Shown here: positions 9,706-60,984 of the stretch, one piece after another
How positions within the stretch are numbered: the first letter of the stretch is position 1
Layout of the letters: the number at the start of each line of letters is the position of its first letter
IMG/VR virus record: IMGVR_UViG_3300043775_002839
Span: 1 to 64,000 of that record
DNA: 64,000 bases
Source of the DNA: a virus
Strand: one strand, 5' to 3'
Notes under the pieces: model-generated
The model's input: the letters and a program-made list of their open reading frames with translations, nothing else
Database searches by the model: none
What the model was told of the DNA's origin: nothing
Translations under genes and position numbers: made by a program

Positions 9706-12492
9706 ATGGCACAAGTTAATAGAATTTCTTCATTTAAGAGCTTTACTGAGGTTAAAAACCAGGAGGCTACAATGAAACTAAGAGAAACAAACAATGCAAA
9801 AAGACAGGAAACTGTTGGTAAAATTGGAGCAATCCTTGATGAAATGGGATTAACTTCTCTATCTGAACTGGATGAAGAGAAAAAACAAGCACTAATTAAC
9901 AAAATGTTTGGAAACGTTTCAGAAGATGAAGCAGAAGATATTGAAGACGAACTTAATAAATTAGGAGAACCTAAAAAACTAGAAGAGGGAAATGCATTTA
10001 TTTTTGCAGCCAGTAAAGCTAAACAAGATGGAAAATCTGAGTTTGAATTTAATGGTAAAAAATATAAAGTAACCATTAAAAAAGATACAGGTCTTAAAGA
10101 AGGTAATGCGTTTGGAGCTGCTGTTAAAAAAGCCAAAGAAGATGACGAAGATGAATTTGAAATTGACGGTGAAACTTACGAAATTGAAGAGGCTAAAAGA
10201 AGTAAATTTACTGGTAAAACTGCAAATGACCTATATACTCAAATTGGTGGAAAACCTGTAGAAGTTTTTGTTGGAAATGACTGGTACTCAGTTAACCCTG
10301 CAGAATTAAAAGGTGACAAAGGAGATTCTTTCATTGGATACACAAGAGATGGATCTGACCATGAATTCTATCTTAAAGACATTAGTTTTATACAAGAATC
10401 TTTAAATGAAGGTAAGCATGGAATGGCTAAAAAATTACTTAAAGGAATTGTTGATGGAGATTCTTCAGAAGCAGAAGGTATCAAATTATCAAAAGAATTA
10501 GCTGACCATTATTTAAACTGGATTAGCACATCTGCGTTTGGTAAGAAAAATGAAAACTTACCATTGAATATGTTGATAAATGCAAGTTTTAACTGGGGAA
10601 TTGAAAGACAATTAGACCCTAAATTAAAAGGAGAACTTGAAGCACTAAAAGCAAGCCAAAAGAAAAATGAATCTATAGTTAATGAAGCCCGTTCAATTGC
10701 TAAAATTCAATATGACTGGTCTAAACTGACAACTACAATGCAGGCTACCGCTCAAAATTGGAAAGCTGCTGAAGGGTCTGCTAAAGAAATGTTGCTTGGA
10801 AAATTAAAAGAAATGACTGCTCAAAAGAAAGCTCTAGAAGCTGAATTGGATGCGACAATTGCTGATAAAGACAAAGACCTAGAATTAGTAGTTTCTGAAG
10901 CATTCAACCGATTACCAAAAGATGTTATTGGAAATGAATTATACTTAGCATCTAAAAATTTAACCAACTTATTTAATAGTGCAAATGCCGGAAATGATAT
11001 TGACACTGGAGTAGTTGATTCTATCGTTAAACAATTAAACATTGTTAAAAAATCTGTTAAGAAATTTAACAATGCTGAAGAAGTTGCTGGAACTGTTTAT
11101 GAAGGAGAAGTATTATTATTTGATGAAATAGGAACGGAATTAGAAGCTCTTAAAAAGAAAATATCTGGCTTAATGAAAAGCGCAACAGATAAAAAATGGG
11201 TTTCAGCATTAGGTGCTGCTTCATCTGCACTTTCTAACTTAGATAGAAATTTAAGTCAATCAGATTCTAAATTAGGAGCTATTATTACCGAAGCTGATCT
11301 ATATGAAGGTAAAGCAAAAGACCTAAAACCAAATCATAAATACACATCAGACTACGGTGAAGTTACATTCATCAAATTAAATCCTGATGGTAAAACTATG
11401 AAGTTGCATTCAAAAGAAACTGGAGAAATTAAAACAGATATTTCAAATGCATACAATATGGAATTAATTGAATCAGTAGTTAATGAAGCTGAAAAGTTCA
11501 AAAGCACTAAAGATTTCATAGATTTCTTAGAGGAAATCGATGGTATGCCAGAGAATAGAATCAAAAGAATCATGGGTAAAGATTACATCGATACTCCAGG
11601 AGGTTTCAGAGATGAGGCAGATGATTATGATAATGACATCGAAGAGTATACCCTTTCTAACATGGGTAAATCTGATTTTAACGAACTTAAAACATGGTGG
11701 GAAAACAATGTTCAAGAATCTTTAACTGAAGGTCAAGATCCAAGCGCAGAAAAAACAAGTAGAGCTGAACAATTAAAAAAATTAAAAGCCTTTAAAGCTC
11801 GCCAAGAAGAAACAGAAAAACTTAAAAAACTACAAGCAAAAAGAGCTAAAGCCGCTGGATCTGCTAAAGAATCTGTAGTTGCTGAAGGTAAAGATGATTA
11901 TATGGCCAGATCTGGAAGTGCAGATATTAACATAAAGAAAGGTTATAAGCATTTAGTTGAATATGAGCTAGAAGACCTTTATAATAAATTAGGAGCATTA
12001 TCAAAAGAATATAAAATTAAAGGAATTACTGCTACCTTTGAATCAGTAGTTAATGAAGCTGAAGTTAGTTCTGATGATGAATTTAAAGAATACGCAATGA
12101 GCGTTTTGAAAAAAGCATTTGGAGATGACTTTGATGAGGCTAAAGCTGGAGAAGTAGTTGATGGAATTCTTAAAAAATGTGGAGATGATTACGGAGCTGC
12201 TGTTGGAATGCTAACAAGTTCTCTTGGAGAATCAGTAGTTACTGAAGCATTTGATGCAAACTACTGGGAAGATTACCATGAAAAATCTCCAAAAATAACA
12301 TCTGCATCTAAGGTAGCAAATGCTGTTGAAGATTGTGTTTGGGATTGGAATGATAATAATGAAAATGGCAAAGAAAATGAAGTTAGTAAGACTGGAGAAA
12401 AGAAAGTAATGAACTTGGCGCATGACTTTTTTAAAGCAAAAGGATACATCTCATTTGATATTATTGATGCAATGATTGCTCAGGAATCTTAA
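9706..12492 (+). CDS. Head-packaged polyprotein with about twelve prohead-protease sites
   Basis: 928 residues, acidic, Lys/Glu-rich, no membrane segment. The N-terminus (ISSFKSFTE) resembles the capsid-targeting peptides of the neighbours. Sites fitting the T4 gp21 rule (hydrophobic-x-E|A/G) follow Glu residues 94, 132, 162, 235, 327, 529, 534, 594, 675, 727, 784 and 847, many in the repeated context ESVVNE|A or ESLTE|G. Two tandem ~35-residue modules (EGNAF..A..KAK.D...EFE..G..Y) occupy about 94-162 and are cut exactly at their borders. Processing would yield a set of small internal proteins. Their functions are unknown. Confidence 0.7.
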   Translation: MAQVNRISSFKSFTEVKNQEATMKLRETNNAKRQETVGKIGAILDEMGLTSLSELDEEKKQALINKMFGNVSEDEAEDIEDELNKLGEPKKLEEGNAFIFAASKAKQDGKSEFEFNGKKYKVTIKKDTGLKEGNAFGAAVKKAKEDDEDEFEIDGETYEIEEAKRSKFTGKTANDLYTQIGGKPVEVFVGNDWYSVNPAELKGDKGDSFIGYTRDGSDHEFYLKDISFIQESLNEGKHGMAKKLLKGIVDGDSSEAEGIKLSKELADHYLNWISTSAFGKKNENLPLNMLINASFNWGIERQLDPKLKGELEALKASQKKNESIVNEARSIAKIQYDWSKLTTTMQATAQNWKAAEGSAKEMLLGKLKEMTAQKKALEAELDATIADKDKDLELVVSEAFNRLPKDVIGNELYLASKNLTNLFNSANAGNDIDTGVVDSIVKQLNIVKKSVKKFNNAEEVAGTVYEGEVLLFDEIGTELEALKKKISGLMKSATDKKWVSALGAASSALSNLDRNLSQSDSKLGAIITEADLYEGKAKDLKPNHKYTSDYGEVTFIKLNPDGKTMKLHSKETGEIKTDISNAYNMELIESVVNEAEKFKSTKDFIDFLEEIDGMPENRIKRIMGKDYIDTPGGFRDEADDYDNDIEEYTLSNMGKSDFNELKTWWENNVQESLTEGQDPSAEKTSRAEQLKKLKAFKARQEETEKLKKLQAKRAKAAGSAKESVVAEGKDDYMARSGSADINIKKGYKHLVEYELEDLYNKLGALSKEYKIKGITATFESVVNEAEVSSDDEFKEYAMSVLKKAFGDDFDEAKAGEVVDGILKKCGDDYGAAVGMLTSSLGESVVTEAFDANYWEDYHEKSPKITSASKVANAVEDCVWDWNDNNENGKENEVSKTGEKKVMNLAHDFFKAKGYISFDIIDAMIAQES

Positions 12493-12830: not shown

Positions 12831-14120
12831 ATGAAAACAAGAATCCTTAATTTTAACCGGTTCATAACTGAAAAGTATGAAGTTAAATTGAATGAGCAAT
12901 TGCTATTAGAAGGTGGAGCCGCTGGACATATGTCCCATCCATTTGATAATAATGACCTAACATTTGGCGACTTTAAGAATATGATTATTGGTGGACTTCA
13001 AGGAGAATTAAACTTCGAAGAGGAACCTACTGAAAAAACAGACGGTCAAAACGTTTTTGCAACTATTCAAAATGGTGAAGTTAAATTTGCCAGAAATAAA
13101 ACTGAGTTGCAAAACCCTATGAGTCTTAAGGATTTCCAAAATAAATTCGAGGGACATGCAAGTAAATTAGTACAAGATACTTTTCAATTTGCAGCCGCTG
13201 ATTTGGCAACCCTGCTTATAAAGTTACCCGCAAAAACACAAGACGAAGTGTTCCAGAATGGTCTGAACTTCATGAACATGGAGTTGATATATTCTGCTAA
13301 CCCTAATGTAATTCACTACGATGTTGATGTAATTCAATTCCATGGTATCAAGAAGACTGATGGAGCTGGAAATATAGTTGGAGACGACAATAGTGCGGCA
13401 AAAAGTGTTAGTGGAGTACTTAAATCCCTTAATGCTGATGTTGGAAAAACATTCACAATAATTCCTCCACAAGTTATTAAACTACAAAAAGATATAAACT
13501 TTGAAGAGAATCAGACTAAATTCTTAGGAAAACTTGAAGCTCTTAAAAATCGTTATAAATTAACAGATGCTGATGTAGTTGCCCGTTACCATGAAATGTG
13601 GTGGAGAGAGCAAATTGAAGCCTCATTTGGTGACCTACCGCAAAATATCAAAGAGGGTCTATTACTTAGATGGGCCTATGACGATAAGAAAACCTTAAAC
13701 CTTCGTTCATTAGACAAAGAATTGACCAAAGAGCAGGCAGAAGCTGTTAAGAAGTTTGATAAAGAAGACGTTAAAAAGAAATTCAAAGAAAATATTCGAC
13801 CATTCGAAGACCTTTTCTTAGAATTGGGAAGTGTTATCCTAAAGAATGCAAGTAATTTTGTTGCTGCTTCACCAGACAAAGAAATGCAAAGGCTACATAC
13901 TGAAATCCGAACCGAAGCCGACAAGATTAAACTTAATGGAGATGTAACTCAAATTGACAAAGTTGCAAAAGAACTTGACCGATTAGAGAGAATTGGAGGA
14001 ATCCAGTCTATTATACCGACTGAAGGTATTGTATTTTCATACAAAGGACACATGTACAAATTAACAGGAACATTCGCTTCCATAAATGGATTATTAGGTA
14101 TTATTAGGTATGGGAGGTAA
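12831..14120 (+). CDS. KxDG-type ligase-like nucleotidyltransferase, head-targeted
   Basis: 429 residues. Covalent nucleotidyltransferase motifs are visible: motif I EKTDGQN (Lys69 as the AMP/GMP acceptor), a motif III-like NMELIYSANPNVIHYD, motif IV EGIVF (Glu398) and motif V HMYKLTG. These are shared by RNA/DNA ligases and capping enzymes. The N-terminus carries possible prohead-protease sites FITE|K, KLNE|Q and LLLE|G (Glu27). The conserved-looking GGAAGHMSHPF begins right after the last of these. It may act as an RNA or DNA ligase delivered with the genome; the substrate cannot be read from sequence. Confidence 0.7.
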   Translation: MKTRILNFNRFITEKYEVKLNEQLLLEGGAAGHMSHPFDNNDLTFGDFKNMIIGGLQGELNFEEEPTEKTDGQNVFATIQNGEVKFARNKTELQNPMSLKDFQNKFEGHASKLVQDTFQFAAADLATLLIKLPAKTQDEVFQNGLNFMNMELIYSANPNVIHYDVDVIQFHGIKKTDGAGNIVGDDNSAAKSVSGVLKSLNADVGKTFTIIPPQVIKLQKDINFEENQTKFLGKLEALKNRYKLTDADVVARYHEMWWREQIEASFGDLPQNIKEGLLLRWAYDDKKTLNLRSLDKELTKEQAEAVKKFDKEDVKKKFKENIRPFEDLFLELGSVILKNASNFVAASPDKEMQRLHTEIRTEADKIKLNGDVTQIDKVAKELDRLERIGGIQSIIPTEGIVFSYKGHMYKLTGTFASINGLLGIIRYGR

Positions 14121-14931
14121 AAAATACAACTACATTTATAAAACAACCTGCATAATTACAAATAAGTTTTATATTGGAATGCATTCAACCGACAATCTAG
14201 AAGATGGTTACATTGGTTCAGGTAAAAGGTTATGGCATTCAATTAATAAACATGGAAAGGACAATCATGTTTGCCAGATATTGGAATTCTTACCTGATAG
14301 AAAATCATTAGCTGAAAGAGAAAAGGAAATTGTTAACATAGAAATGTTAAACGAGGAACTATGTATGAATATCACAACAGGTGGTGAAGGCGGTTATAAT
14401 TTAAAAGCAGTTGAATCTAATAGACTTAAAAAAGGCAAAACATACGAAGAAATATTTAAAACCCCAGAAATGGCAGAGTATAGAAGACAATTAGCAAAAG
14501 ATAATTACAGTAAATCTATTGAAAGTTATAATTTTAAAAATATAGATAAAAATAAACATTTTGAAATATGTAAAAAAGGAGCAATTGCGCATCAAAATTC
14601 TGAGTATATCCATAGTGAAGAAACTAAATCTAAAATAAAAGATTCTAATAAAAATAGAGATTGGTCAGATAGAAAAACTGAAGATTATAGAAACAACATA
14701 TCAATAAAAACTAAAGAGGCAATGTCCAAATTAGATAATAAATTTCAAGAAAAAGCTTTAGAATCAAGATTAATATATTGGTCTAATAAAAGAATTGAAC
14801 AGATTAATAATATCATTGAACTTCAAAACACGGGTAATACCCCAAAAGAAATAAGAGTTAAATTAAATATGTCATATCATGTTTATAATTCTAGAATAAA
14901 AGAAATAAATACGATAGATAAATCAATATAA
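14110..14931 (+). CDS. GIY-YIG endonuclease (homing-type)
   Basis: 273 residues. The N-terminal domain has YIYKTTCIITNKFYIG with DGYIGSG further on and a catalytic-type Glu in AEREKEIVNIE, the GIY-YIG nuclease pattern of T4 Seg proteins. The rest is Lys/Asn-rich with NUMOD-like spacing and a C-terminal helix-turn-helix-like stretch (NTPKEIRVKLNMSYHVYNSRIKEI). The gene begins inside the last codons of the ligase-like gene and ends 9 bases before the next, so it looks inserted between two packaged-enzyme genes. It is more AT-rich than its neighbours. Confidence 0.8.
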   Translation: MGGKKYNYIYKTTCIITNKFYIGMHSTDNLEDGYIGSGKRLWHSINKHGKDNHVCQILEFLPDRKSLAEREKEIVNIEMLNEELCMNITTGGEGGYNLKAVESNRLKKGKTYEEIFKTPEMAEYRRQLAKDNYSKSIESYNFKNIDKNKHFEICKKGAIAHQNSEYIHSEETKSKIKDSNKNRDWSDRKTEDYRNNISIKTKEAMSKLDNKFQEKALESRLIYWSNKRIEQINNIIELQNTGNTPKEIRVKLNMSYHVYNSRIKEINTIDKSI

Positions 14932-14940
14932 TTTAAGATA

Positions 14941-16812
14941 ATGGCATTACAAAAATTAAGAGAGTATTTTAACGAAACCAATAGAGAAACCTTTATTGAA
15001 ATGTTAAAAAATAGGGTGTTAGTAACTGAGAAAGTTTCTGCACCTACATTTCTTGTTAAAAGAAATCTTGATGGATTTGAATATTTTAAATCTTCAAATT
15101 CAGACAAATTAAATCTAGTTGACCGAACTATTATCTCCCTATATGAGATTGCAATCAACTACATGCAAAGTTTGCCAAGTGAAACTAAAAGTCAAATGCC
15201 AATTGATTGGAGATTTGGTTTTGAATACCTTCCGGAAGTTAATGTATCTAAAATTAAATACGGGAAAACTCCAAAAAATAACCTAATCTTGACTCATATC
15301 CAACAACTTGGAGAAGGAGATAGGGTTAAGAAAACTATAAATGACCCAGTTATCCTAAATAAATGGGCAAAAATTCTTGATGTTCAACAGCCAAGCGTAA
15401 TTTTTGATGGCTATTTATCTCAATTACAACGGGATGAATTACTTGAAGTACTTGGAATGAGCGATAGAGAATTTAGCGAATCATTTGACTATTTGCCGGA
15501 AACAAAAGACAAAACTAGTTTTACTAGTAAAATAGTTAAACTTTTTAACAATAGTGCTTTTGAAACTGCCTTAAATTCTGACATTGATGATGAATTTGAT
15601 GGATTAGTTGTTAATTTTATTGATGAAAAATCTATTAAATCTTTTAAATTAGAGGACTTTATCCGAAAAACTGCAGTTGATAACTCTTCAAGTCACATGT
15701 ATCAAATTGCAGTCACTGACTTTTTAGAATTTATAACTCAATTTAAGATCGATGAAGTTCAACTTGAAGACGAAAGAGCCGATTATAGATACCTTGAAAT
15801 AATGTCGATTATATTTAATGAATATGTTGACAAAAACTCTTCAAAATATATTGGAGTTAATTTTGAAAGCGCTGAATTTTCATCAGCAAATTCTTTTAAA
15901 TTAAACTCAAAATATATTACCGATGAAAAAACCTTAAAATATGTTTCTAACGATATTTTAGCGGAACTTTTTAAAATGATTTTAGGTTCTTTTAGAAAGA
16001 AGCGAACAAAAACATCAGACTTAATAGATGAGGACACTATGGAACGTTTAAATGAAATAATTGAAAAAATCAATGAAAAAATATTTGTTGAAAGCACTGA
16101 TGAAAATTCAATCTATGATTATCAAAATTTTATGTTGCGCGATAGGATTAAATCTTCAGTTAACCTGAATGAAGCGCTTAAACTTACTCACGTTGAACAA
16201 GGAAAACAACCAGTAAATATGTTTGTTGGAAGATTTCAGCCATTTACACTGGGACATGCAAAGGTTTTAGAAACTATACATAAAGAGAATGGATTCCCTG
16301 TAGTTGTATTCCTTGTTAAATCAAAAACCAAAAAGAAAGGTGATGAATTTAGCAGACCATACGATGAAAAGACTCAAATCGATATGTTTAAAAACGTCCA
16401 AAAACAATACTCATTCTTAAAAGAAATATTTGTAGTTCCGACTGGAGGTATCGATGTTATGTTTAATGAGATGAGACCTAAATACGAACCAGTACTTTGG
16501 GGAACGGGAAGCGACCGAATGACAAGTTATGGTTATCAAGTTAATAATGATGCGTATAGAGACCAATTAAACTGTAGAGCTGATTTTGGACTTTTTGAAA
16601 TTCCAAGAACTGACGATGATATTTCGGCTACTGCAGTTAGAAATGCCTTATTAGCAGGTGATGAAAAACAATTTAACAATCTAACGCCAAAGGCAGTTCA
16701 TTCGATGTATAAAGAATTAAAATCTAAAATTGAAGATGCTATGGGAGTTGTTGCCGAATCAGTTACAAATGATATTATGACATTCGAACAATTTATTAAT
16801 AAAGATATATAA
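14941..16812 (+). CDS. Head-packaged protein with NMN-adenylyltransferase-like domain
   Basis: 623 residues. Residues ~425-600 form a nucleotidyltransferase domain of the NadM/NMNAT type: MFVGRFQPFTLGHAK (HxGH-class motif) and ISATAVRNALLAGDE (ISxTxxR). Protease-type sites NLNE|A (after Glu411) and VVAE|S (after Glu606) bracket this domain and would free a 195-residue enzyme. The N-terminal ~410 residues are unrecognised. The extreme C-terminus, MTFEQFINKD, resembles the neighbours' N-terminal targeting peptide, here at the other end. The likely role is NAD synthesis or a related nucleotidyl transfer early in infection; substrate is inferred. Confidence 0.75.
   Translation: MALQKLREYFNETNRETFIEMLKNRVLVTEKVSAPTFLVKRNLDGFEYFKSSNSDKLNLVDRTIISLYEIAINYMQSLPSETKSQMPIDWRFGFEYLPEVNVSKIKYGKTPKNNLILTHIQQLGEGDRVKKTINDPVILNKWAKILDVQQPSVIFDGYLSQLQRDELLEVLGMSDREFSESFDYLPETKDKTSFTSKIVKLFNNSAFETALNSDIDDEFDGLVVNFIDEKSIKSFKLEDFIRKTAVDNSSSHMYQIAVTDFLEFITQFKIDEVQLEDERADYRYLEIMSIIFNEYVDKNSSKYIGVNFESAEFSSANSFKLNSKYITDEKTLKYVSNDILAELFKMILGSFRKKRTKTSDLIDEDTMERLNEIIEKINEKIFVESTDENSIYDYQNFMLRDRIKSSVNLNEALKLTHVEQGKQPVNMFVGRFQPFTLGHAKVLETIHKENGFPVVVFLVKSKTKKKGDEFSRPYDEKTQIDMFKNVQKQYSFLKEIFVVPTGGIDVMFNEMRPKYEPVLWGTGSDRMTSYGYQVNNDAYRDQLNCRADFGLFEIPRTDDDISATAVRNALLAGDEKQFNNLTPKAVHSMYKELKSKIEDAMGVVAESVTNDIMTFEQFINKDI
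16804..16812 (+). promoter_or_regulatory. GATATATAA promoter-like motif
   Basis: Exact motif, 33 bases ahead of the ATG at 16837 and overlapping the previous stop codon. Confidence 0.6.
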
Positions 16813-20459: not shown

Positions 20460-21293
20460 ATGCCAAGTACAAGTAAAGCACAACAACAACTAATGGGTAT
20501 GGCATACTCTCTTAAAAAAGGAGATATGGACCCTAAAGATGCAAGCCAAGAGGTTAAAGACCTTGCAGATTCTATGACACTTCAACAATTGAAAGATTTT
20601 GCAAGTACAAAACATGAAGGACTACCTGACCACGTTAAAGAGGCTGAAGACCATGAGGTTGGAATGGCAATGAGTCAACTTAATGCAATTTCCAAAGCAG
20701 TTGGTGAATTACTTCAAAAAATTGGAAGAGAAGAAAAGGACCTGCCAGGATGGTTGCAAGACCATATTTCGCAGTCTTATAATTATATCAAACAGGCAAA
20801 CGATGGTTATCATGAACTTGATGAGATGGTTTCTCCTGATAGTATTGGAGGAATGGGAGCTACTGCCCTACCTTCACCAACTGGAGTAGGTTCTGGAGAC
20901 GTTCCAAAAGGAAGAGGAGATGCAAAAGAGGAAGAGGAAGAAGAAAAAAAGAGACGCAAAGAGTTCTTAAAAAAGTTTAAATCTTTTGAAGAGTTTATAA
21001 ATGAAGCAAGTCTACAAACAATTTCCGGAAATAGTGGTAGAACTATTACATTATTAGATAATAAAAAGTACGAATTAAAGAAAGATGTTAAAAATGCAAA
21101 AATAGGAGACTATGTTAATGTTATCTTGCCAAAAGGAACTATTATTACAAATTTACCTGGTGGAATATTTGCAAATCATACTTCATTAAAACAAAATCGT
21201 AATTACAAGTGGTCCGGCGATATTGGAGTAAGAATCACTTCTATGCCTGAAACAATTCATGAAATTGAAAAGAATGGAAAAGTATTAGAATAA
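20460..21293 (+). CDS. DUF3008-like protein fused to a head-targeting segment
   Basis: 277 residues. Residues 1-60 (MPSTSKAQQQLMGMAYSLKKG ... DFASTKHEGLP) match a small phage protein family known as DUF3008. A Glu/Lys stretch follows (~155-170), then SFEEFINE|A with the cut after Glu182, which is the targeting motif placed internally. The last ~95 residues are a beta-rich domain with LPKGTIITNLPGG. Cleavage would separate the two domains. A strong terminator closes the cluster just downstream. Confidence 0.65.
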   Translation: MPSTSKAQQQLMGMAYSLKKGDMDPKDASQEVKDLADSMTLQQLKDFASTKHEGLPDHVKEAEDHEVGMAMSQLNAISKAVGELLQKIGREEKDLPGWLQDHISQSYNYIKQANDGYHELDEMVSPDSIGGMGATALPSPTGVGSGDVPKGRGDAKEEEEEEKKRRKEFLKKFKSFEEFINEASLQTISGNSGRTITLLDNKKYELKKDVKNAKIGDYVNVILPKGTIITNLPGGIFANHTSLKQNRNYKWSGDIGVRITSMPETIHEIEKNGKVLE

Positions 21294-21642: not shown

Positions 21643-23067
21643 ATGGAATTTATAGACGCATTAAGACAAGATGATATGTTAACTGAAAATGGAATGGCGA
21701 CAAATTCGACATCATTGAATGCTTGCGTTGACCTTTTCTTTAACATTGGAGCTATGAGAGGACAGGACAAGCAACGTTTGATTGCTACTTTCTCTAAAGC
21801 ATTTAATGAAGACCCAAAGCGCGCTATGAAACTTCTTTTTTGGGCTAGAGATGTTCGAGGTGGAGCTGGAGAACGTCAAGTTTTCAAAGACATTTTAGTC
21901 TACTTGGCAGAAAACCACGACTTGGTACTTAAACCAAACTTACACTTAATTTCTGAGTATGGACGTTGGGATGATTTATTAGTCTTAACAGGAAAATATC
22001 TTGAAAAAGAGGCATTCACCCTAATTTCAGATGCTTTAATTGCTGAAAATAATTTATGTGCAAAATGGATGCCCCGTAAAGGACCAATCGCTGAAAAGTT
22101 ACGTAAATTTACTGGAATGTCTCCAAAACAATACAGAAAATCTCTTGTAGGTTTAACTAATGTTGTTGAAACTAAAATGTGTGCTAAAGATTGGAATTCT
22201 ATTGACTTCGGTAAATTACCATCAGTAGCTTCTGCACGTTACCAAAAAGCCTTTGGTAAAAATGCATACGAAAGTTATTCAGCGTATATTGCTTCCCTTG
22301 TAAAAGGTGAGGCTAAGATTAATGCAGGTGCAGTTTATCCTTACGATATTATTACATCGTTAGAGCGTGGAAATGCAACCGTAGCAAACGAACAATGGAA
22401 AGCCTTGCCAAACTATTTGGAAGGTGCAAATGATATGATTTTACCAGTAGTAGACGTTTCAGGTTCTATGTCAACTCCAGCTGGTGGAAGTAAAACTGTA
22501 ACTTGTATGAATGTTGCAATCTCATTAGGTCTCTATATTTCTGAAAGAAATGAAGGTCCTTTCAAAGATGCATTTATTACATTCTCAAGTAAACCACAGT
22601 TACAAGTATTAAGTGGCTCACTGAATGATCGCTACACACAGATGTCAGACTCTGATTGGGGAATGTCAACAGATCTTGAGGCTACATTCAAACTGATCCT
22701 AGATCAGGCCACTAAGCACAAATTATCGCAAGATAAAATGCCAAACAAAATCCTAATCCTATCGGATATGGAGTTTAACACGGCAACATCAAAACGATAT
22801 GGAATAGAAAGTGGATGGAATCCAACTGCGCAGCAGATGATTGAAACTATGTATTCCGATGCAGGTTACAAAGTACCTCAAATTGTTTACTGGAACATTC
22901 AATCCCGAAACGGAGGAGTACCAGTTTCATTTGATGCTAAAGGAACTGCCCTAATTTCAGGATTCTCTCCAGCGATTATGACAAGCCTACTTGGAGGAGA
23001 TATAGAATCTCCACAACAAATAATGGATAAAACAATTTTGAGTGAGAGATACGCTCCAGTTGTTTAA
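21643..23067 (+). CDS. Ro60-like TROVE/DUF2828 protein with vWA domain
   Basis: 474 residues. The N-terminal ~260 residues are alpha-helical repeats with LFWARDVRGGAGERQVFKD and SEYGRWDDL, the pattern of TROVE/DUF2828 proteins. The C-terminal von Willebrand A domain starts at ILPVVDVSGSMSTP, carrying an intact MIDAS DxSxS, with a later Asp in ILSDMEFN. Ro60 proteins form RNPs with Y RNAs and with defective RNAs. The downstream 23.07-23.44 kb segment lacks a gene and ends in a terminator, which is the usual place for a Y-like RNA. Function in this phage is inferred. Confidence 0.75.
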   Translation: MEFIDALRQDDMLTENGMATNSTSLNACVDLFFNIGAMRGQDKQRLIATFSKAFNEDPKRAMKLLFWARDVRGGAGERQVFKDILVYLAENHDLVLKPNLHLISEYGRWDDLLVLTGKYLEKEAFTLISDALIAENNLCAKWMPRKGPIAEKLRKFTGMSPKQYRKSLVGLTNVVETKMCAKDWNSIDFGKLPSVASARYQKAFGKNAYESYSAYIASLVKGEAKINAGAVYPYDIITSLERGNATVANEQWKALPNYLEGANDMILPVVDVSGSMSTPAGGSKTVTCMNVAISLGLYISERNEGPFKDAFITFSSKPQLQVLSGSLNDRYTQMSDSDWGMSTDLEATFKLILDQATKHKLSQDKMPNKILILSDMEFNTATSKRYGIESGWNPTAQQMIETMYSDAGYKVPQIVYWNIQSRNGGVPVSFDAKGTALISGFSPAIMTSLLGGDIESPQQIMDKTILSERYAPVV

Positions 23068-25133: not shown

Positions 25134-26321
25134 ATGAACAAAATTAAAGTAGGAATTATTGGAACTGGAAATTGCGCTAAATCATTAGTTGAAGGTGTAC
25201 AATATTACACAGAGAATCCAAATGATATTACCGGAATGATGAAGTCCGATATTGGAGGTTACAAAGCAGAAAATATTGAATTTGTCTGTGGATTCGAAAT
25301 TGATGAACGTAAAGTTAATCAAACATTAGGATATGCACTTAAACAAAGACCAAACTCTGCATGGGACATTGTTGATGTAATCAAATCTGAGGCTCCAGTT
25401 TATGAGGCTCCAGTAATTGATGGTTATGCAGCCCTTATGGATAACTATCCAGAACAAAATCGTTTCTTAGTTGACGAAAAACTAAGAAATTCTACAGACA
25501 TGAATCGCACTGATTGGACACCAAAAAAATCAAGAGAATGGAAGGATTCAATCATTGCTAAATTAAAAGACCATGGAGTTGAGGTATTGATTAACTACTT
25601 ACCGGTAGGTTCTCAAAAAACAACTGAATTCTGGGCTGAAATTTGTCTTGAAACAGGAATCTCACTAGTAAACTGTATTCCAGTTTTTATTGCATCTGAC
25701 CCAGCTTGGGAGCAGCGATTTATCGATGCTGGAATTCCAATTATTGGAGATGATATGCGTTCTCAATTTGGAGCAAGTATTCTTTCTCAAATGTTACAAG
25801 AACTTGCCTTTGAAAGAGGACATCATGTAAAAGCCCACATCCAAAGAAATGTTGGAGGTAACACAGATTTCTTAAACATGGAAGACAAATCTCGTCTAGC
25901 ATCTAAAAAGATTTCTAAAGAAAATGTTATCCGTGCACAAAACGAAATCCGTGGAATTTCAACTGAAGATTCATTCTTACACGCAGGTCCTTCTGAATAT
26001 ATCGCATTCTATGGTGATAACAAAGTTGCTAACTTCCGTTTAGAACTTACAGGATTCGGTGGAGCACCAGTTCTTTTTGATGCTCAATTAAGTGTACAAG
26101 ACTCTCCAAACTCTGCAGGAGTTGTAATTGACGCAGTTCGTTACTTAAGAGTTGCAAGAGAATTAGGAGTTGTAGGAGCCTTAAGAGGTCCTTCAGCATT
26201 TACACAAAAAACCCCACCAGACCAGATGATGTTTGCTGACGCTGTTTATGAATGTACTGAATTGGCTGCAAGACGCCTAACAGATTCTACAAGAAAACAG
26301 TTAGTTGCTAAAACAAAATAA
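25134..26321 (+). CDS. ino1: myo-Inositol-1-phosphate synthase
   Basis: 395 residues. The N-terminal Rossmann motif VGIIGTGNCAKSLVEGV binds NAD; LINYLPVGS, NCIPVFIASDPAW, IIGDDMRSQFGASI and RNVGGNTDFLNM are signature segments of the short bacterial/archaeal inositol-3-phosphate synthases. The enzyme converts glucose-6-phosphate to inositol phosphate. Sequence looks complete with no frameshift. Rare as a phage gene. In Bacteroidota, inositol phosphates feed inositol lipids, so host-envelope change or a phage-specific modification are both possible. A strong terminator follows. Confidence 0.9.
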   Translation: MNKIKVGIIGTGNCAKSLVEGVQYYTENPNDITGMMKSDIGGYKAENIEFVCGFEIDERKVNQTLGYALKQRPNSAWDIVDVIKSEAPVYEAPVIDGYAALMDNYPEQNRFLVDEKLRNSTDMNRTDWTPKKSREWKDSIIAKLKDHGVEVLINYLPVGSQKTTEFWAEICLETGISLVNCIPVFIASDPAWEQRFIDAGIPIIGDDMRSQFGASILSQMLQELAFERGHHVKAHIQRNVGGNTDFLNMEDKSRLASKKISKENVIRAQNEIRGISTEDSFLHAGPSEYIAFYGDNKVANFRLELTGFGGAPVLFDAQLSVQDSPNSAGVVIDAVRYLRVARELGVVGALRGPSAFTQKTPPDQMMFADAVYECTELAARRLTDSTRKQLVAKTK

Positions 26322-43981: not shown

Positions 43982-46573
43982 ATGGCAAATTATAACCAGA
44001 AGTTTAACTCTGACGATAGTGTAGTTAGACACATTATTATAGGATTTTTAGCCGATTTGAATACTAAATTGTATTTTCATCGACAAATAACCAATGAAGA
44101 GAGAGTAGTAGTGGACGTTCCATTTTACTACTCAATAACAGGGGATGACCAGTTCCTAAGAGATAATTTCTTATTTTCTACAGCATCCGGTCCAAATTGT
44201 ACTCCAGATAAAGAACATGCCGATGCAAACTACGATGTTGTACCAAGAGGACTTGTAAACTTTGATGGACTTGCTATTGATTCTGGAAAACTAGTTAATA
44301 AAAGAATCTCCGGTAACTATACTAAAATGAATTCTGAGGGAATTATTGAATCTTATGTTGCCGAATTTGACATGATTCCAATAACTATCAGTTTTAATGT
44401 TGAAATACTAGTATCTTCAACTCTTGATTCTTTTAAAATAACTGAGGCAATAATTAAAAGAATGTACAAATCCAACTATTTTAATGTTGAAGTTGGACAT
44501 TTAGAAGAGGGTAATTATAGAATTGCATCTTATTATGCCCTACCGGACGATTATAATCTTGAAAGACCCGTTGGATTCAAATATGATGATAAGGACCGAT
44601 TTAAAATAACCTTTCCAATTGAAGTTAATTCATTTATACCTTCATTCCATCTAGGAAATGAAGAAAGTTTCGGAACAAATACAGATCGTTTCGGAACAAA
44701 TCAACGTTCTACTGAAATGTTTGCTGGAAATAGAATGTTTACAATAAATAACATTATAAATTCGACAGATGTTACTCAAATCGATTCCGGTCCATTTCTT
44801 GGAGAAATTATACAAGTGCCATCAATACCACCAACAAATGGTAGTTCACTATTTGGATCTCAGGGACCTATAGGTCCTGCAGGAGACAGAGGACCTCAAG
44901 GACGCCAAGGTCCTATAGGACCTCAAGGATATCAGGGTATTCAGGGTATTAAAGGAGATCAAGGACTTCAGGGTATTAAAGGAGACCAAGGTACTCAAGG
45001 AGATCAAGGACTTCAGGGTACTCAAGGAGATCAAGGACTTCAGGGTATTAAAGGAGACCAAGGAATACAAGGAGACCAAGGAATACAAGGAGACCAAGGT
45101 ACTCAGGGAGACCAAGGAATACAAGGTACTCAGGGAGACCAAGGAATACAAGGTACTCAAGGAGACCAAGGAACGCAAGGTACCACTCCACTTTGGATTT
45201 TTAGAGGTGAATGGGTAAATGGGATTGATTATATTGCTGGAGACTTGGTTACATTTAACGGATCTCTTTACTATACAGCAACCGGCGTTTATTCTTCTTT
45301 TAATCCGGAATATACTGGAGTGGACTGGGCTCTTATATCTCCGAGAGGAGACCAAGGAGACCAAGGAGACCAAGGAGACCAAGGAGACCAAGGAACTCAA
45401 GGAGACCAAGGAACTCAAGGAGACCAAGGAACTCAAGGAGACCAAGGAACTCAAGGAGACCAAGGAACTCAAGGAGACCAAGGAACTCAAGGAGACCAAG
45501 GAACTCAAGGAACTCAAGGAACTCAAGGAGAAAAAGGCACAACAGGAAATTTTGGTGGTGCAACATTTGAGTTCTTCTATGACAATGATACAACGGATCC
45601 TGTAAATCTTACTTCTGGACACATAAGAATTAATGAATTTGGTACTGAAATGTACATTTCATATTTAGATGCTAACTCCGTAAATATTCAATCATTCATA
45701 CATACAATTGATGACTCATCTTCTCAGATCAAAGGTTCATTTAAACTAACCTCATATTCTGACCCACTGCTTTATGCATTTTTTAATATCACCGGCTCTC
45801 ATACAGAACATTCAGATCATTTTAATGTTCCAATTGCATTTATTTCTAGCCCTATTGCTGGAACTGTACCTCCTGATCAAAGAACATATATTACATTTCA
45901 AAGAACAGGAGATATTGGAGACCGAGGACCTCAAGGAGACCAAGGACCTCAAGGACCTCAAGGACCTCAAGGAGACCAAGGACCTCAAGGAGACCAAGGA
46001 ACTCAAGGAGACCAAGGAACTCAAGGAGACCAAGGAACTCAAGGAGACCAAGGAACTCAAGGAGACCAAGGACCTCAAGGAGACCAAGGACCTCAAGGAG
46101 ACCAAGGACCTCAAGGAGACCAAGGACCTCAAGGAGACCAAGGACCTCAAGGAACTCAAGGAGACCAAGGACCTCAAGGACCTCAAGGAGACCAAGGACC
46201 TCAAGGAGACCAAGGAACTCAAGGAACTCAAGGAACTCAAGGAAATGGACCTCAAGGACCTCAAGGACCTGCTGGTACAGGTTCAGGTGCAGGTGGAAGT
46301 ATTAAATCAATAAACGTAATAAGCAGTAATACAATCGCCGGAAGTAATGCTAGCACTGAATACACATATCTTGCATCAGGAACTATTGATATCACTCTTC
46401 CAACAGCCGTGGGAAATACAAATAACTACTATATCAAAAATACAGGAACAGGTACAGTAACAATTAAAACAACAGGATCTGAAACAATAGATGGAAGTTT
46501 AACAGCACCTCTGCGGGTACAATACACTGCGCTAACTCTTGTCAGCGACCAATTAAACTGGTTCATAATATAA
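43982..46573 (+). CDS. Collagen-like tail fibre with carbohydrate-binding-type insert
   Basis: 863 residues. About 290 N-terminal residues form a non-repetitive, probably attachment domain. Three collagen-like blocks of Gly-x-Gln/Pro triplets follow (about 290-400, 455-522, 640-770), mostly GDQGTQ and GPQGDQ. Between the first two is a compact aromatic domain (GEWVNGIDYIAGDLVTFNGSLYYTA) of the CBM5/12 chitin-binding type. A short Gly-rich stretch and ~85-residue C-terminal beta domain follow. It is a trimeric fibre candidate. A GATATATAT element ends only 3 bases before the ATG. Confidence 0.8.
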   Translation: MANYNQKFNSDDSVVRHIIIGFLADLNTKLYFHRQITNEERVVVDVPFYYSITGDDQFLRDNFLFSTASGPNCTPDKEHADANYDVVPRGLVNFDGLAIDSGKLVNKRISGNYTKMNSEGIIESYVAEFDMIPITISFNVEILVSSTLDSFKITEAIIKRMYKSNYFNVEVGHLEEGNYRIASYYALPDDYNLERPVGFKYDDKDRFKITFPIEVNSFIPSFHLGNEESFGTNTDRFGTNQRSTEMFAGNRMFTINNIINSTDVTQIDSGPFLGEIIQVPSIPPTNGSSLFGSQGPIGPAGDRGPQGRQGPIGPQGYQGIQGIKGDQGLQGIKGDQGTQGDQGLQGTQGDQGLQGIKGDQGIQGDQGIQGDQGTQGDQGIQGTQGDQGIQGTQGDQGTQGTTPLWIFRGEWVNGIDYIAGDLVTFNGSLYYTATGVYSSFNPEYTGVDWALISPRGDQGDQGDQGDQGDQGTQGDQGTQGDQGTQGDQGTQGDQGTQGDQGTQGDQGTQGTQGTQGEKGTTGNFGGATFEFFYDNDTTDPVNLTSGHIRINEFGTEMYISYLDANSVNIQSFIHTIDDSSSQIKGSFKLTSYSDPLLYAFFNITGSHTEHSDHFNVPIAFISSPIAGTVPPDQRTYITFQRTGDIGDRGPQGDQGPQGPQGPQGDQGPQGDQGTQGDQGTQGDQGTQGDQGTQGDQGPQGDQGPQGDQGPQGDQGPQGDQGPQGTQGDQGPQGPQGDQGPQGDQGTQGTQGTQGNGPQGPQGPAGTGSGAGGSIKSINVISSNTIAGSNASTEYTYLASGTIDITLPTAVGNTNNYYIKNTGTGTVTIKTTGSETIDGSLTAPLRVQYTALTLVSDQLNWFII
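44860..45185 (+). repeat. Collagen-like coding repeat, block 1
   Basis: Tandem 9-base units coding Gly-x-x triplets, including GIQGIKGDQGLQG-type variants. Direct-repeat structure is evident at DNA level. Confidence 0.9.
45343..45540 (+). repeat. Collagen-like coding repeat, block 2
   Basis: Near-identical 18-base units (GGAGACCAAGGAACTCAA) in tandem. Such low-divergence repeats are prone to copy-number change by slippage or recombination. Confidence 0.92.
45908..46275 (+). repeat. Collagen-like coding repeat, block 3
   Basis: Tandem 9- and 18-base units alternating GPQ, GDQ and GTQ triplets, almost identical at DNA level to block 2. Confidence 0.92.
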
Positions 46574-57384: not shown

Positions 57385-59307
57385 ATGACTAAAAACTTAC
57401 TGATCCTAGAAAGATCGTCTACAGAGTTAGAGTTTAAACAAGAAGGTGGGACCTATGTTCTAGAGGGTATCTTTGGAGAAATCGATAAGAAAAATCGTAA
57501 TAACCGAATCTATACTGAATCTGAATACTTACCGCAAATTGAGGCTCTACAGGCAAAAATTAAATCATCTAAGTTATTAGGTGAATTAGATCACCCGCAA
57601 ACATTTGATGTTTCTTTAAAAAATGTATCACATATTATTGAAGAACTTACTTATGACACAGAAACTAAGCAGGTTAAAGGACGTATAAGATTATTAGATA
57701 CTGATGCTGGAAGACAGGCAAAAGCCCTTGTAGATGCTGGTGTTCCATTACAAATTTCAAGTAGAGCAGCTGGTGCAGTTGAATCTAATGGAACTGTAAA
57801 AATTAAACAATTATTTACTTATGATTTAGTGGCAGACCCTGGGTTTGAAAACGCTGAATTGAAAAGAGTTAATGAAGCTTATGGGTTTCTTAATGAAGGA
57901 AATGACCTATTTATTTACGAGATAAATAAAGAAAACGAACAACAACCAATCGAAAATATAAACGAAACAAAAATGGCAGAGTCTAAATTTATTACGGTTG
58001 AGGATTTTAATAAATACTCTAAATATCTTTCTGAAGAAATTAAATCTATTAAAGAAGGTATGAATTCTTTAACAGAATCAGAGTCTACTAGTTCTCAATT
58101 AGGAACCCTTAAAGAATATACTGATTATTTAGCTAAGAAATTAGATGAATCAATCAAATATTCAGAACACATTGCTGAAAAAGCAGACCAAGGTATTCAA
58201 TACTCAGAAACACTTGCAGAGAAATTGGATCAAGGTATTCAATACTCAGAGCATATTGCTGAAAGCGTTGATGCTATCAAAAATTACACTAACTATTTAG
58301 CTGAATCTTACAATGAAGGTTCTACTTCTTACGAGAATTTAATTAAATATACTGAATATTTAAGAGAGAACTTAGAAAAAGTAACTGAGTATGCTGAGTA
58401 CGTTGCAGAAACTGTTAACACTAACCTATTATTAGAAGACGAAGCAGGAATTCCAGCTGAAGACCTTAAAGATGAAACAGAAGATGTTTCTCCTGATGTC
58501 GTAGATGCTGACGGTAATGTAATCACTGGAAAACCAGAAGACGTTGCTAAAGATGTAAAACTTGCTGGTAGTGGAGATGCTGCTGGTGAAGAAATTAAAG
58601 AAGCAAACGACGGAACTGCAGCAGGTTTACCAGCTGAAGATATCAAAAAAGCTACTAAAGATGTTACTGTAGATGTAATTGATGCTGACGGTAATGTAAT
58701 TAAATCAAAACCAGAAGATGTAGAAAAGGACTTAGAACTTGCCGGTAAAGGAGACGCTGCTGGAAAACAAGTTGACCAGATGGAAGCTTACAAAAATTCA
58801 ATCACTTCTAAATTAGAAGCCCTAGTTGAAAAAGTAAATGCTAAAAAAGAAGACAATCCAACATTCTTTAAATTTATCTCTGAAGAGAAAGTAACCGAAT
58901 TTAACGCCCTATCTACTGAAGATAAAACTAAAGTTGTAAGTGCAGTCGAAGGTAGAGGTTACCTAACTGAAGGACAAATCTTGGCCCTATGGAATACTTC
59001 ATTAAGTGGAGTTGTAGAAACTAATAATTCACCTACAGTTATTAAATTAATGCCAACTGAATACCATGATACTTGGGCTAAATGTTCTGAAGGTAAGAAA
59101 AACCAAATCATCGCGCAGTCTAAATATCATAAATTAGAAACAGCTTACCAAGTTGCAAACTTTTGGCAAACTAGAGACCTTAGAGAAGTTGCTCCAGTAA
59201 TGGAAAAAATCGCTATGGTAAATGAATCAACAGTTGAAGATGTTCAAACTTTAGGTTATGATGCTACCCAATTAGGTGCTGAAATTGCAAAAAGATTCAA
59301 TAGATAA
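57385..59307 (+). CDS. 21/22: Prohead protease gp21 fused to scaffold (gp22-like)
   Basis: 640 residues. Residues ~1-170 are the protease: FGEIDKKNRNNRIY, catalytic-type His70 in LGELDHP and Ser in QISSRAAG (125-126), then TYDLVADPGFENA. Self-cleavage-type sites VNE|A and FLNE|G follow near 163-170. The rest is scaffold-like: heptad repeats of ~14 residues (YSEHIAEKADQGIQ), then two copies of a ~50-residue module containing VDADGNVI and KPEDV. In T4 protease and scaffold are separate genes. A probable internal start lies at 57973. Confidence 0.85.
   Translation: MTKNLLILERSSTELEFKQEGGTYVLEGIFGEIDKKNRNNRIYTESEYLPQIEALQAKIKSSKLLGELDHPQTFDVSLKNVSHIIEELTYDTETKQVKGRIRLLDTDAGRQAKALVDAGVPLQISSRAAGAVESNGTVKIKQLFTYDLVADPGFENAELKRVNEAYGFLNEGNDLFIYEINKENEQQPIENINETKMAESKFITVEDFNKYSKYLSEEIKSIKEGMNSLTESESTSSQLGTLKEYTDYLAKKLDESIKYSEHIAEKADQGIQYSETLAEKLDQGIQYSEHIAESVDAIKNYTNYLAESYNEGSTSYENLIKYTEYLRENLEKVTEYAEYVAETVNTNLLLEDEAGIPAEDLKDETEDVSPDVVDADGNVITGKPEDVAKDVKLAGSGDAAGEEIKEANDGTAAGLPAEDIKKATKDVTVDVIDADGNVIKSKPEDVEKDLELAGKGDAAGKQVDQMEAYKNSITSKLEALVEKVNAKKEDNPTFFKFISEEKVTEFNALSTEDKTKVVSAVEGRGYLTEGQILALWNTSLSGVVETNNSPTVIKLMPTEYHDTWAKCSEGKKNQIIAQSKYHKLETAYQVANFWQTRDLREVAPVMEKIAMVNESTVEDVQTLGYDATQLGAEIAKRFNR
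57973..59307 (+). CDS. 22: Probable nested scaffold start within protease/scaffold gene
   Basis: An in-frame ATG (residue 197 of the fusion) begins MAESKFITVEDFNKYSKYL exactly where the scaffold part starts. It is preceded by an A-rich, G-poor stretch (ataaacgaaacaaaa) indistinguishable from genuine leaders in this phage. It would produce the scaffold alone in excess over the protease, as in the nested protease/scaffold genes of other phages. Use of this start is inferred. Confidence 0.5.
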   Translation: MAESKFITVEDFNKYSKYLSEEIKSIKEGMNSLTESESTSSQLGTLKEYTDYLAKKLDESIKYSEHIAEKADQGIQYSETLAEKLDQGIQYSEHIAESVDAIKNYTNYLAESYNEGSTSYENLIKYTEYLRENLEKVTEYAEYVAETVNTNLLLEDEAGIPAEDLKDETEDVSPDVVDADGNVITGKPEDVAKDVKLAGSGDAAGEEIKEANDGTAAGLPAEDIKKATKDVTVDVIDADGNVIKSKPEDVEKDLELAGKGDAAGKQVDQMEAYKNSITSKLEALVEKVNAKKEDNPTFFKFISEEKVTEFNALSTEDKTKVVSAVEGRGYLTEGQILALWNTSLSGVVETNNSPTVIKLMPTEYHDTWAKCSEGKKNQIIAQSKYHKLETAYQVANFWQTRDLREVAPVMEKIAMVNESTVEDVQTLGYDATQLGAEIAKRFNR

Positions 59308-59466: not shown

Positions 59467-60984
59467 ATGGCAAATTTAATTAATGAAGCAGAAATCAGAG
59501 CAACGTGGGCTCCGATTATCGAATCTGCGACAGGTATCAACGATGCAAGCAAATTAGCTTGGATGTCAGAATACTGTCACAACCACAAATTATATGAAGA
59601 TGCTTCTCAAATGAGCTTAGGTACTGCTGGTAACATCTTTGGTATGGGTGCTACAGCTTTACCTGGAAATACCTTTACAAATGGTATGTCTACTACAAAA
59701 GGTTCTGGAGACAAATCTCCTTCTTTACTTCCTTTAGCAATGCAAGTTGCTGCTCAAACTATCGGTCTTGACTTAGTACCAGTAGTTCCTATGGCTGGTC
59801 CAATGGGATTATTATCTTACTTAGACTTTGTTTACGAAGGTGGTAAATTAGGTGGAACTACTGCTCCAACTTATGTTAAAGCTAACCCAGTTGCTGGTAC
59901 TTCTGATTTAGCAGCTGCTACTGCTGGTTCTCCTGCAGTTGCAACATCTACAACTTATACTTACATTGGAAAATCTCGTATCGATGGTTATTCAATCTTT
60001 AAAGTAAATGGTAACCCAGTTGCTGCTAACGTTGCTGCCGATTTACTATTAGCTGTAAATGCTGTATTATCTCCTGATACTACCGGTACTATCTTAGATG
60101 TACAATTAGTAAAAGCTTTAGAGGATCACGTTAAAGGATTCGCTGCTTCTACTGCATCTGGTACTCCATTTACAAGAGAAGGTGGAGAACAAACTCCAGA
60201 CAAAGTTATGGGTCTATCTTTATTCTCTAAAAGCGTTTCAGCTGAAACTTTCCAAGTTGCTGCTGCCGTTACAAGAGAGCAAGTTCAAGATTTAAAACAA
60301 TTCGGAGTTGATGCTGTTGCTCAAGTTGAAGCTGTTTTAACTAATGAATTAACTCAAGGTATTAACCAATACATCTTAGGAAGAATCAGAACTTTAGGTA
60401 CTCTTAACGTTACTAGAGCTTTCAGCGCTGATGCATTTGACTTAAGCTTACCTGCTGCTTCATCTTTAACAGGTGGTGAAACTTTACCTTCTGTTCACAG
60501 AAGAATTCTTTCTCAAATCTTAGCTTCTGCTAACTTAATTGCTAACAGAGGTAGAAGAGGTGCTGGTAACTTCGCAGTATGTGGACCACAAACTGCTACA
60601 GTTTTACAATCAATCGCTGGTTTCGTTGCAAACCCAATGGCAAATACTTTCGCACAAGCTGCTGGAGCTATCTACCCATTAGGATCTGTAGCTGGAATTA
60701 ACATCTATACTGACCCTACAATGGACTGGGCTGATTATTCAATCGCAGTTGGTAGAAAAGGAGACGGAAACGGACCTGGTATCGTATTTATGCCTTACTT
60801 AATGGCTGAATCAGTTCAAGCAATTGCTGAAGGAACTATGGCTCCTAAAGTAGCTGTTAAATCTAGATTCGCTCTAGTTGATGCAGGATTCCACCCTGAA
60901 ACTCAATATGTTGAATTTAATGTTAAACCAATCACTGCTTCACCAGCTGTTGCACAATGGACTAACTTATTAACTTTAGCTTAA
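59467..60984 (+). CDS. 23: Major capsid protein gp23
   Basis: 505 residues (T4 gp23 is 521). T4-like segments include ATWAPIIESATG, LDLVPVVPMAGPMGLLSYLDFVYEGGK, TREQVQDLKQFGVDAVAQVEAVLTNELTQGINQYILGRI, NRGRRGAGNF and GRKGDGNGPGIVFMPYLMAE. T4 removes 65 residues at LTE|AEI. Here an analogous LINE|AEI lies at residues 4-10, so processing may be minimal, or it may occur near residue 40 (KLYED). Codons favour GCT, GGT and similar, as in a very highly expressed gene. Confidence 0.93.
   Translation: MANLINEAEIRATWAPIIESATGINDASKLAWMSEYCHNHKLYEDASQMSLGTAGNIFGMGATALPGNTFTNGMSTTKGSGDKSPSLLPLAMQVAAQTIGLDLVPVVPMAGPMGLLSYLDFVYEGGKLGGTTAPTYVKANPVAGTSDLAAATAGSPAVATSTTYTYIGKSRIDGYSIFKVNGNPVAANVAADLLLAVNAVLSPDTTGTILDVQLVKALEDHVKGFAASTASGTPFTREGGEQTPDKVMGLSLFSKSVSAETFQVAAAVTREQVQDLKQFGVDAVAQVEAVLTNELTQGINQYILGRIRTLGTLNVTRAFSADAFDLSLPAASSLTGGETLPSVHRRILSQILASANLIANRGRRGAGNFAVCGPQTATVLQSIAGFVANPMANTFAQAAGAIYPLGSVAGINIYTDPTMDWADYSIAVGRKGDGNGPGIVFMPYLMAESVQAIAEGTMAPKVAVKSRFALVDAGFHPETQYVEFNVKPITASPAVAQWTNLLTLA

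Follow-up and report, generated by a model that had tools for sequence, protein, structure and literature searches.

In phage T4, residues 4 and 7 of the capsid-targeting peptide direct packaging into the head, whereas cutting depends on residues 8 and 10; the known T4 targeting peptides are N-terminal, and the Alt protein undergoes C-terminal processing too (PMC9026906). In cyanophages, NMNAT-like proteins have been found in virions by mass spectrometry, with a warning from the authors about possible carry-over in CsCl preparations (PMC9602691, PMC10665884), and NMNAT-like/cytidyltransferase virion proteins have been reported for S-CBWM1 and S-SZBM1 as well. Phage NAD salvage by NadV plus NadM or NadR is established (PMC9503650), and the particles of vibrio phages are reported to contain a NARP2 protein, for which an immediate defence was likewise suggested (PMC12028318). 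The genes for two of the virion-detected cyanophage proteins begin with MKSFLQFLKE↓A (S-SCSM1 ORF91) and MKNFSSFLTE↓A (S-CREM2 gp154), the arrow marking the putative cut.

Here we analysed a 64,000-nucleotide stretch (the window) of a 93.7-kb record of a T4-like bacterial virus, IMGVR_UViG_3300043775_002839, the remainder of which was also read; the record encodes a T4-type portal, head maturation protease and major head protein. The ORF at 14941-16812 (+ strand, as are all features marked + below) encodes a 623-aa protein that we describe as a precursor, made up of a pseudo-RNA-ligase domain, a NadM-like adenylyltransferase domain and a C-terminal targeting-like peptide. Relatives of the protein were found at 34 IMG/VR loci (48-99% identity), and the main alignment comprised 21 sequences, 20 of them relatives with 48-96% identity to it. 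The AlphaFold2 model built from this alignment had a mean pLDDT of 70 and a pTM of 0.42, values that make the packing of the domains untrustworthy. A preliminary description of this ORF had pointed out NadM-type motifs, two protease-type sites and the fragment between them, all of which we confirmed; it had missed the N-terminal pseudo-ligase domain, the C-terminal peptide and a neighbouring ligase-like gene.

The predicted released fragment (residues 412-606; 16174-16758, +) is a HIGH-superfamily adenylyltransferase of 195 aa. The protein matched phage cytidyltransferase families in PHROGs (E 1.1e-17) and Pfam CTP_transf_like over residues 427-567 (E 1.1e-6), its PF01467 score of 29.3 bits exceeding the gathering cut-off of 21. 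The best solved sequence relatives were NMN adenylyltransferases (MJ0541 and the Synechocystis NMNAT/Nudix protein), and in Foldseek comparisons both NMNAT and phosphopantetheine adenylyltransferase lay near the domain, which has a Rossmann-type fold; M. thermautotrophicus NMNAT and NadM were among the top matches. Two nucleotide-binding motifs are present: GRFQPFTLGHAK at residues 430-441 (16228-16263, +), an HxGH-type motif with Thr at the first position (GRFQPFTLGH, Thr replacing the first His), and ISATAVR at residues 561-567 (16621-16641, +), of the (I/S)S(T/A)xxR type. Residues G430-T436, G438, H439, S562-T564 and R567 were invariant in the 21-sequence alignment, so that the loss of nucleotide-binding residues, named in the preliminary description as a refutation, was not seen. 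The NadM-like character of the domain is backed by sequence and fold matches together with these motifs.

The acceptor side of the domain differs from NadM, and NMN, implied as the substrate in the preliminary description, is a candidate and not proven. Among curated models, the nearest were cyt_tran_rel, above its cut-off, and the archaeal NMNAT model TIGR01527, for which the domain scored 31.5 bits against an equivalog cut-off of 181.2 bits; the PPAT model gave 13.4 bits. The D-x3-N-x2-W motif of NadM, whose Asn and Trp we take to bind nicotinamide, the Trp by stacking, corresponded in a pairwise alignment to D505-x3-N509-x2-R512. Asn509 and Arg512 were both invariant among the 21 sequences, with Arg standing at the Trp position in a region where the multiple alignment is unstable. 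The SGNP of NadM reads GTGSDR in the domain, a GxDR-type motif that is common to the nucleotidyltransferases of cyanophages and Campylobacter phages.

Residues 1-383 (14941-16089, +) form a domain resembling T4 RNA ligase 2 (Foldseek 2hvr, E 1.7e-6, prob 1.00), and other RNA ligases were matched as well; these matches were assigned to residues 1-380 by elimination, with the nucleotidyltransferase matches set aside, and by motif position. The ligase motifs are degenerate. Motif I reads EKVSAP or ENVAAP, with Asn at the position of K31 in L010, L011 and L028, three of the relatives; the D/H-G of a KxDG-type motif I was not present in the 21-sequence alignment, and the motif IV Glu is Asp throughout, giving DG(L)(V/I) instead of EG. 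The catalytic pair of an Rnl2-type enzyme, a KxDG-type Lys and a motif IV Glu, is missing from this domain. Motif I is ENLDG in the LR756500 homolog and EDxQG or ENIQG in phages of 635-735 kb, where the ligase-fold domain occurs without an attached nucleotidyltransferase. From these motifs we read the domain as a pseudo-ligase that would have lost ligase chemistry.

The acidic P1 residues named in the preliminary description, Glu411 and Glu606, lie exactly where it placed them, with the 195-aa fragment between them. A simple protease motif is weak evidence in this protein because it is so frequent: [VILFMA]xE occurred 27 times in 623 aa and [VIL][NATSQ]E six times, compared to 3.2 in shuffled sequences, and a bare count of LxE-type matches was rejected as evidence of cleavage. 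Conservation is more informative for the first site. Residues 410-413 (NE↓AL; 16168-16179, +; putative prohead protease cut after Glu411) were 99% conserved as NE-A/G-L, whereas the flanking linker was 73% and 67% conserved, and they end a segment (residues 384-412) with pLDDT below 50, which we take as a disordered linker. The second putative cut, after Glu606 (VVAE↓S; 16756-16758, +) ahead of the C-terminal peptide, reads VVAE or VVVE in closer relatives only, but [VILM]xE occurs at a shifting position in the short linker before that peptide in 21 of 21 sequences; residues 604-613 are another low-confidence segment of the model. The presumed cutter is a gp21-type head maturation protease encoded at 57385-59307 (+; phrog_207, E 1.1e-40). 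The product of the major head protein gene (59467-60984, +; phrog_138, E 7.9e-43) starts MANLINE↓A. Sites of the form [VIL][NT]E[AGSKQ] are enriched in head-cluster proteins, with five in the protease ORF and seven in the ORF starting at 9706 (0.8 and 0.7 in shuffles, respectively).

Two of these head-cluster proteins have further features. The product of 57385-59307 (640 aa) has 15 protease-type sites and YSExxAE repeats following the protease part, and may be a protease-scaffold fusion; that of 9706-12492 (928 aa) has 13 such sites, several of them ES(V/L)x(N/T)E, and looks like a polyprotein to be cut into many pieces. Elsewhere in the window, 43982-46573 encodes an 863-aa protein with a weak match to the T4 gp15 tail-sheath stabiliser and four collagen-repeat stretches.

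The precursor ends in MTFEQFINKDI, of which MTFEQFI (residues 613-619; 16777-16797, +) resembles capsid-targeting peptides. T614, F615 and Q617 were invariant and F618 95% conserved in the 21 sequences, so that TFxQ[FY] is kept at the extreme C-terminus while the preceding linker is merely 49% conserved. TFEQFI has the FxxF[VIL] pattern with which the products of neighbouring genes begin, in capsid-targeting peptides (MKHIKLFEQFVNE, MKHINLFEEFLNE, MKHIPTFESFVNE and MNFNQFLNE) that are similar to the T4 one. Four other genes of the 93.7-kb record carry a loose FxxF[VIL] near their C-termini, and the argument hence rests on the conservation of the peptide rather than on a single motif. An N-terminal targeting peptide on the precursor (MALQKLREYFNE) was not supported, since distant relatives do not keep its Glu and helix is predicted for these residues. 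The C-terminal placement is unusual. A DUF3008-type protein appears to be a second case of a targeting-like peptide away from the N-terminus: the neighbour in LR756500 (L035 10260-10643) ends in FIKTFNEFKTEYK, and its counterpart in the window (20460-21293) has an internal KSFEEFINE↓A. Because targeting-like peptides are shared in this way, including with the starts of the virion-detected cyanophage relatives, packaging of the precursor into the head and excision of the fragment are likely. Head packaging, as the preliminary description had proposed, thereby gains support from the C-terminal peptide and from those relatives with an N-terminal one.

Taken together, we lean, with a little better than even confidence, towards a head-packaged precursor that is cut by the prohead protease and releases a NadM-like, NAD-making enzyme delivered with the DNA. 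The TFEQFI-type C-terminal peptide would bring the precursor into the prohead core, where the T4 gp21-type protease would make two cuts, one behind Glu411 and one behind a linker Glu close to residue 606. The peptide would thereby be lost, and the ligase-fold domain parted from the adenylyltransferase of about 195 residues. Both mature pieces would enter the cell with the DNA, and the freed enzyme would most likely join NMN, or a close analogue, with ATP to give NAD, using NMN of the host to begin with and, as infection proceeds, what a NAMPT of the phage itself produces. The packaging step is supported by the way site 411 and the C-terminal peptide stand out from variable linkers. Against this reading stand the low NMNAT score, the Arg in place of Trp, the related nucleotidyltransferases of P-RSM4 and CP220, for which NAMPT was not detectable, the LR756500 homolog, which is without the C-terminal peptide, the unusual C-terminal placement of that peptide here, and the pTM of the model.

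A possible but clearly less probable alternative is that the protein is packaged and cut as above but that the adenylyltransferase and a ligase-like partner act in repair or modification of nucleic-acid ends on entry, not in NAD synthesis. The partner gene (12831-14120, +) encodes a motif-intact ligase-like protein with EKTDG; its KTDG (K69), E151, E398G and K410, as well as the F11/E14 pattern of its own N-terminal targeting peptide (FNRFITE↓K), were invariant in 15 sequences. In the relatives it lies immediately upstream of the precursor gene, and LR756500 retains the pair, with a partner carrying MKFLKSYEEFLNE and EKLDG. In the window alone the two genes are separated by a weak GIY-YIG/NUMOD3-like ORF (14110-14931, +), which is probably a homing endonuclease since it is absent at this position from all fetched relatives. 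Similar associations occur in other phages: Campylobacter phage CP220 fuses an EKYDG RNA-ligase-like domain to the same type of nucleotidyltransferase, and in P-RSM4 a KxDG protein (DUF6267) adjoins the nucleotidyltransferase gene directly upstream, which suggests a lasting functional link between the two kinds of protein. The absence of a conserved nicotinamide-stacking Trp also suits action on nucleic-acid ends. However, we know of no HIGH-superfamily nucleotidyltransferase that acts on such ends, the match of the partner to RNA-ligase folds is weak (best E 0.013), and a profile comparison between the partner and cyanophage DUF6267 gave no match, so that their relation is suggested solely by position and motifs. 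No mention of DUF6267 was found in the literature searched. S-SCSM1 ORF90 was dropped as a ligase homolog, as no KxDG-type motif was seen in it and Pfam gave no match.

Two observations concern the wider neighbourhood. A DUF2828/DUF7788 protein (21643-23067; RNA-binding in PHROGs), for which a connection to RNA repair is possible, is encoded just downstream of the head-protein cluster. A myo-inositol-1-phosphate synthase domain is encoded at 25134-26321, with an FkbM-type methyltransferase gene and a 5-hmdU DNA kinase-like gene nearby.

The NAD context bears on both the preferred reading and an unlikely alternative, in which the protein is an ordinary intracellular NAD-salvage enzyme working with NAMPT (NARP2-like), unpackaged, its sites and C-terminal peptide being incidental. 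NAPRTase-family genes, which we name NAMPT from their length, motifs and the tblastn annotation of phage relatives, occurred in all five relatives of at least 199 kb; both of those tested passed the curated NAMPT-type cut-off of 405 bits (554 and 553). None was found in the 93.7-kb record of the window. The precursor homolog was the sole PF01467 protein found in four of these five relatives, and LR756500 has additional nucleotidyltransferase genes near its NAMPT. The larger relatives L045 and L046 also have a nucleoside 2-deoxyribosyltransferase-like gene near the NAMPT gene. The occurrence of NAMPT fits NAD salvage, of the kind already established in phages, but as evidence of NMN specificity it is tempered by how widespread NAMPT is in phages (1940 records) and by the few lineages that the large relatives represent. 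Against an unpackaged enzyme speak the position of the precursor gene among genes with targeting peptides, the conservation of site 411 and the C-terminal peptide within linkers that are not conserved, and the targeting peptides of the virion-detected relatives. An NAD role of the adenylyltransferase is likely but not established.

The proposal that the enzyme counters NAD depletion at DNA entry, the other part of the preliminary description that fared less well than the domain, the linker sites and head targeting, is the weakest step and appears doubtful. NAD-depleting defence enzymes mostly release nicotinamide, which requires NAMPT first (cf. PMC12774641), and a packaged NMNAT alone would hence be limited at entry to pre-existing NMN. 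The NAMPT of the large relatives has no targeting peptide, so that its contribution would come only after expression.

That the precursor is an internal head protein with inactive enzymatic domains and a structural or DNA-condensing role is very unlikely: the catalytic motifs of the N-terminal domain are degenerate, huge phages retain that domain alone at this place and T4-type heads hold internal proteins without known catalytic activity, but across the 21 sequences the residues of the HIGH and ISATxxR motifs hardly vary, if at all, which favours catalysis.

An extension that we regard as improbable in its entirety is a packaged enzyme set encoded by the two neighbouring genes, in which an active ligase-like nucleotidyltransferase, a dead ligase-fold subunit and the protease-freed adenylyltransferase would serve nucleic-acid ends or the recycling of NMN to NAD at DNA entry. 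If so, head maturation would be the switch that separates and activates the enzymes, and NMN recycling would feed an NAD-using reaction during DNA entry. For the preferred reading of a packaged, protease-cut precursor, virion proteomics should find peptides starting at Ala412 and ending at Glu606. If true, this reading would widen the T4 scheme of targeting and cutting, which would then also cover C-terminal peptides and enzyme release from a two-domain precursor. It would connect the NMNAT-like proteins that are so puzzling in cyanophage virions with large phages of a broader class, and bear on the question whether phages inject ready-made NAD enzymes.

The idea of a packaged NAD enzyme is not new, as earlier reports place related enzymes in virions. 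Similar to the precursor, S-SCSM1 ORF91 and S-CREM2 gp154 combine a HIGH-superfamily nucleotidyltransferase, a GxDR motif and a targeting-like peptide, and it is for such relatives that mass-spectrometry data place the protein in virions; their peptide is N-terminal and they have no pseudo-ligase, whereas that of the precursor is C-terminal and its nucleotidyltransferase needs to be cut free. NadM proteins (MJ0541, M. thermautotrophicus NMNAT, Synechocystis NadM) share the fold and the GRFQPFxxGH and S-x-T-x-x-R-type motifs, but the precursor has no Nudix domain, Arg for Trp, GTGSDR for SGNP and a score far under the cut-off. CP220 gp26 likewise places an RNA-ligase-like domain before the nucleotidyltransferase in a single chain, with the EKYDG ligase motif intact and a targeting-like peptide not seen. 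Compared to phage NAD salvage by NadV/NAMPT with NadM or NadR, including NARP2, the likeness is the NAMPT of the large relatives with one candidate NMNAT; the difference is that the precursor nucleotidyltransferase is fused to a pseudo-ligase, not to a Nudix domain or P-loop kinase, and that the NAMPT is without a targeting peptide. The T4 internal proteins and Alt resemble the precursor in the targeting peptide pattern and the putative cut after Glu; the precursor differs in its C-terminal position of the peptide and in an internal cut that would separate two domains. The novelty lies in the C-terminal peptide, the pseudo-ligase and the predicted internal cut, and they make the design of this precursor unusual.
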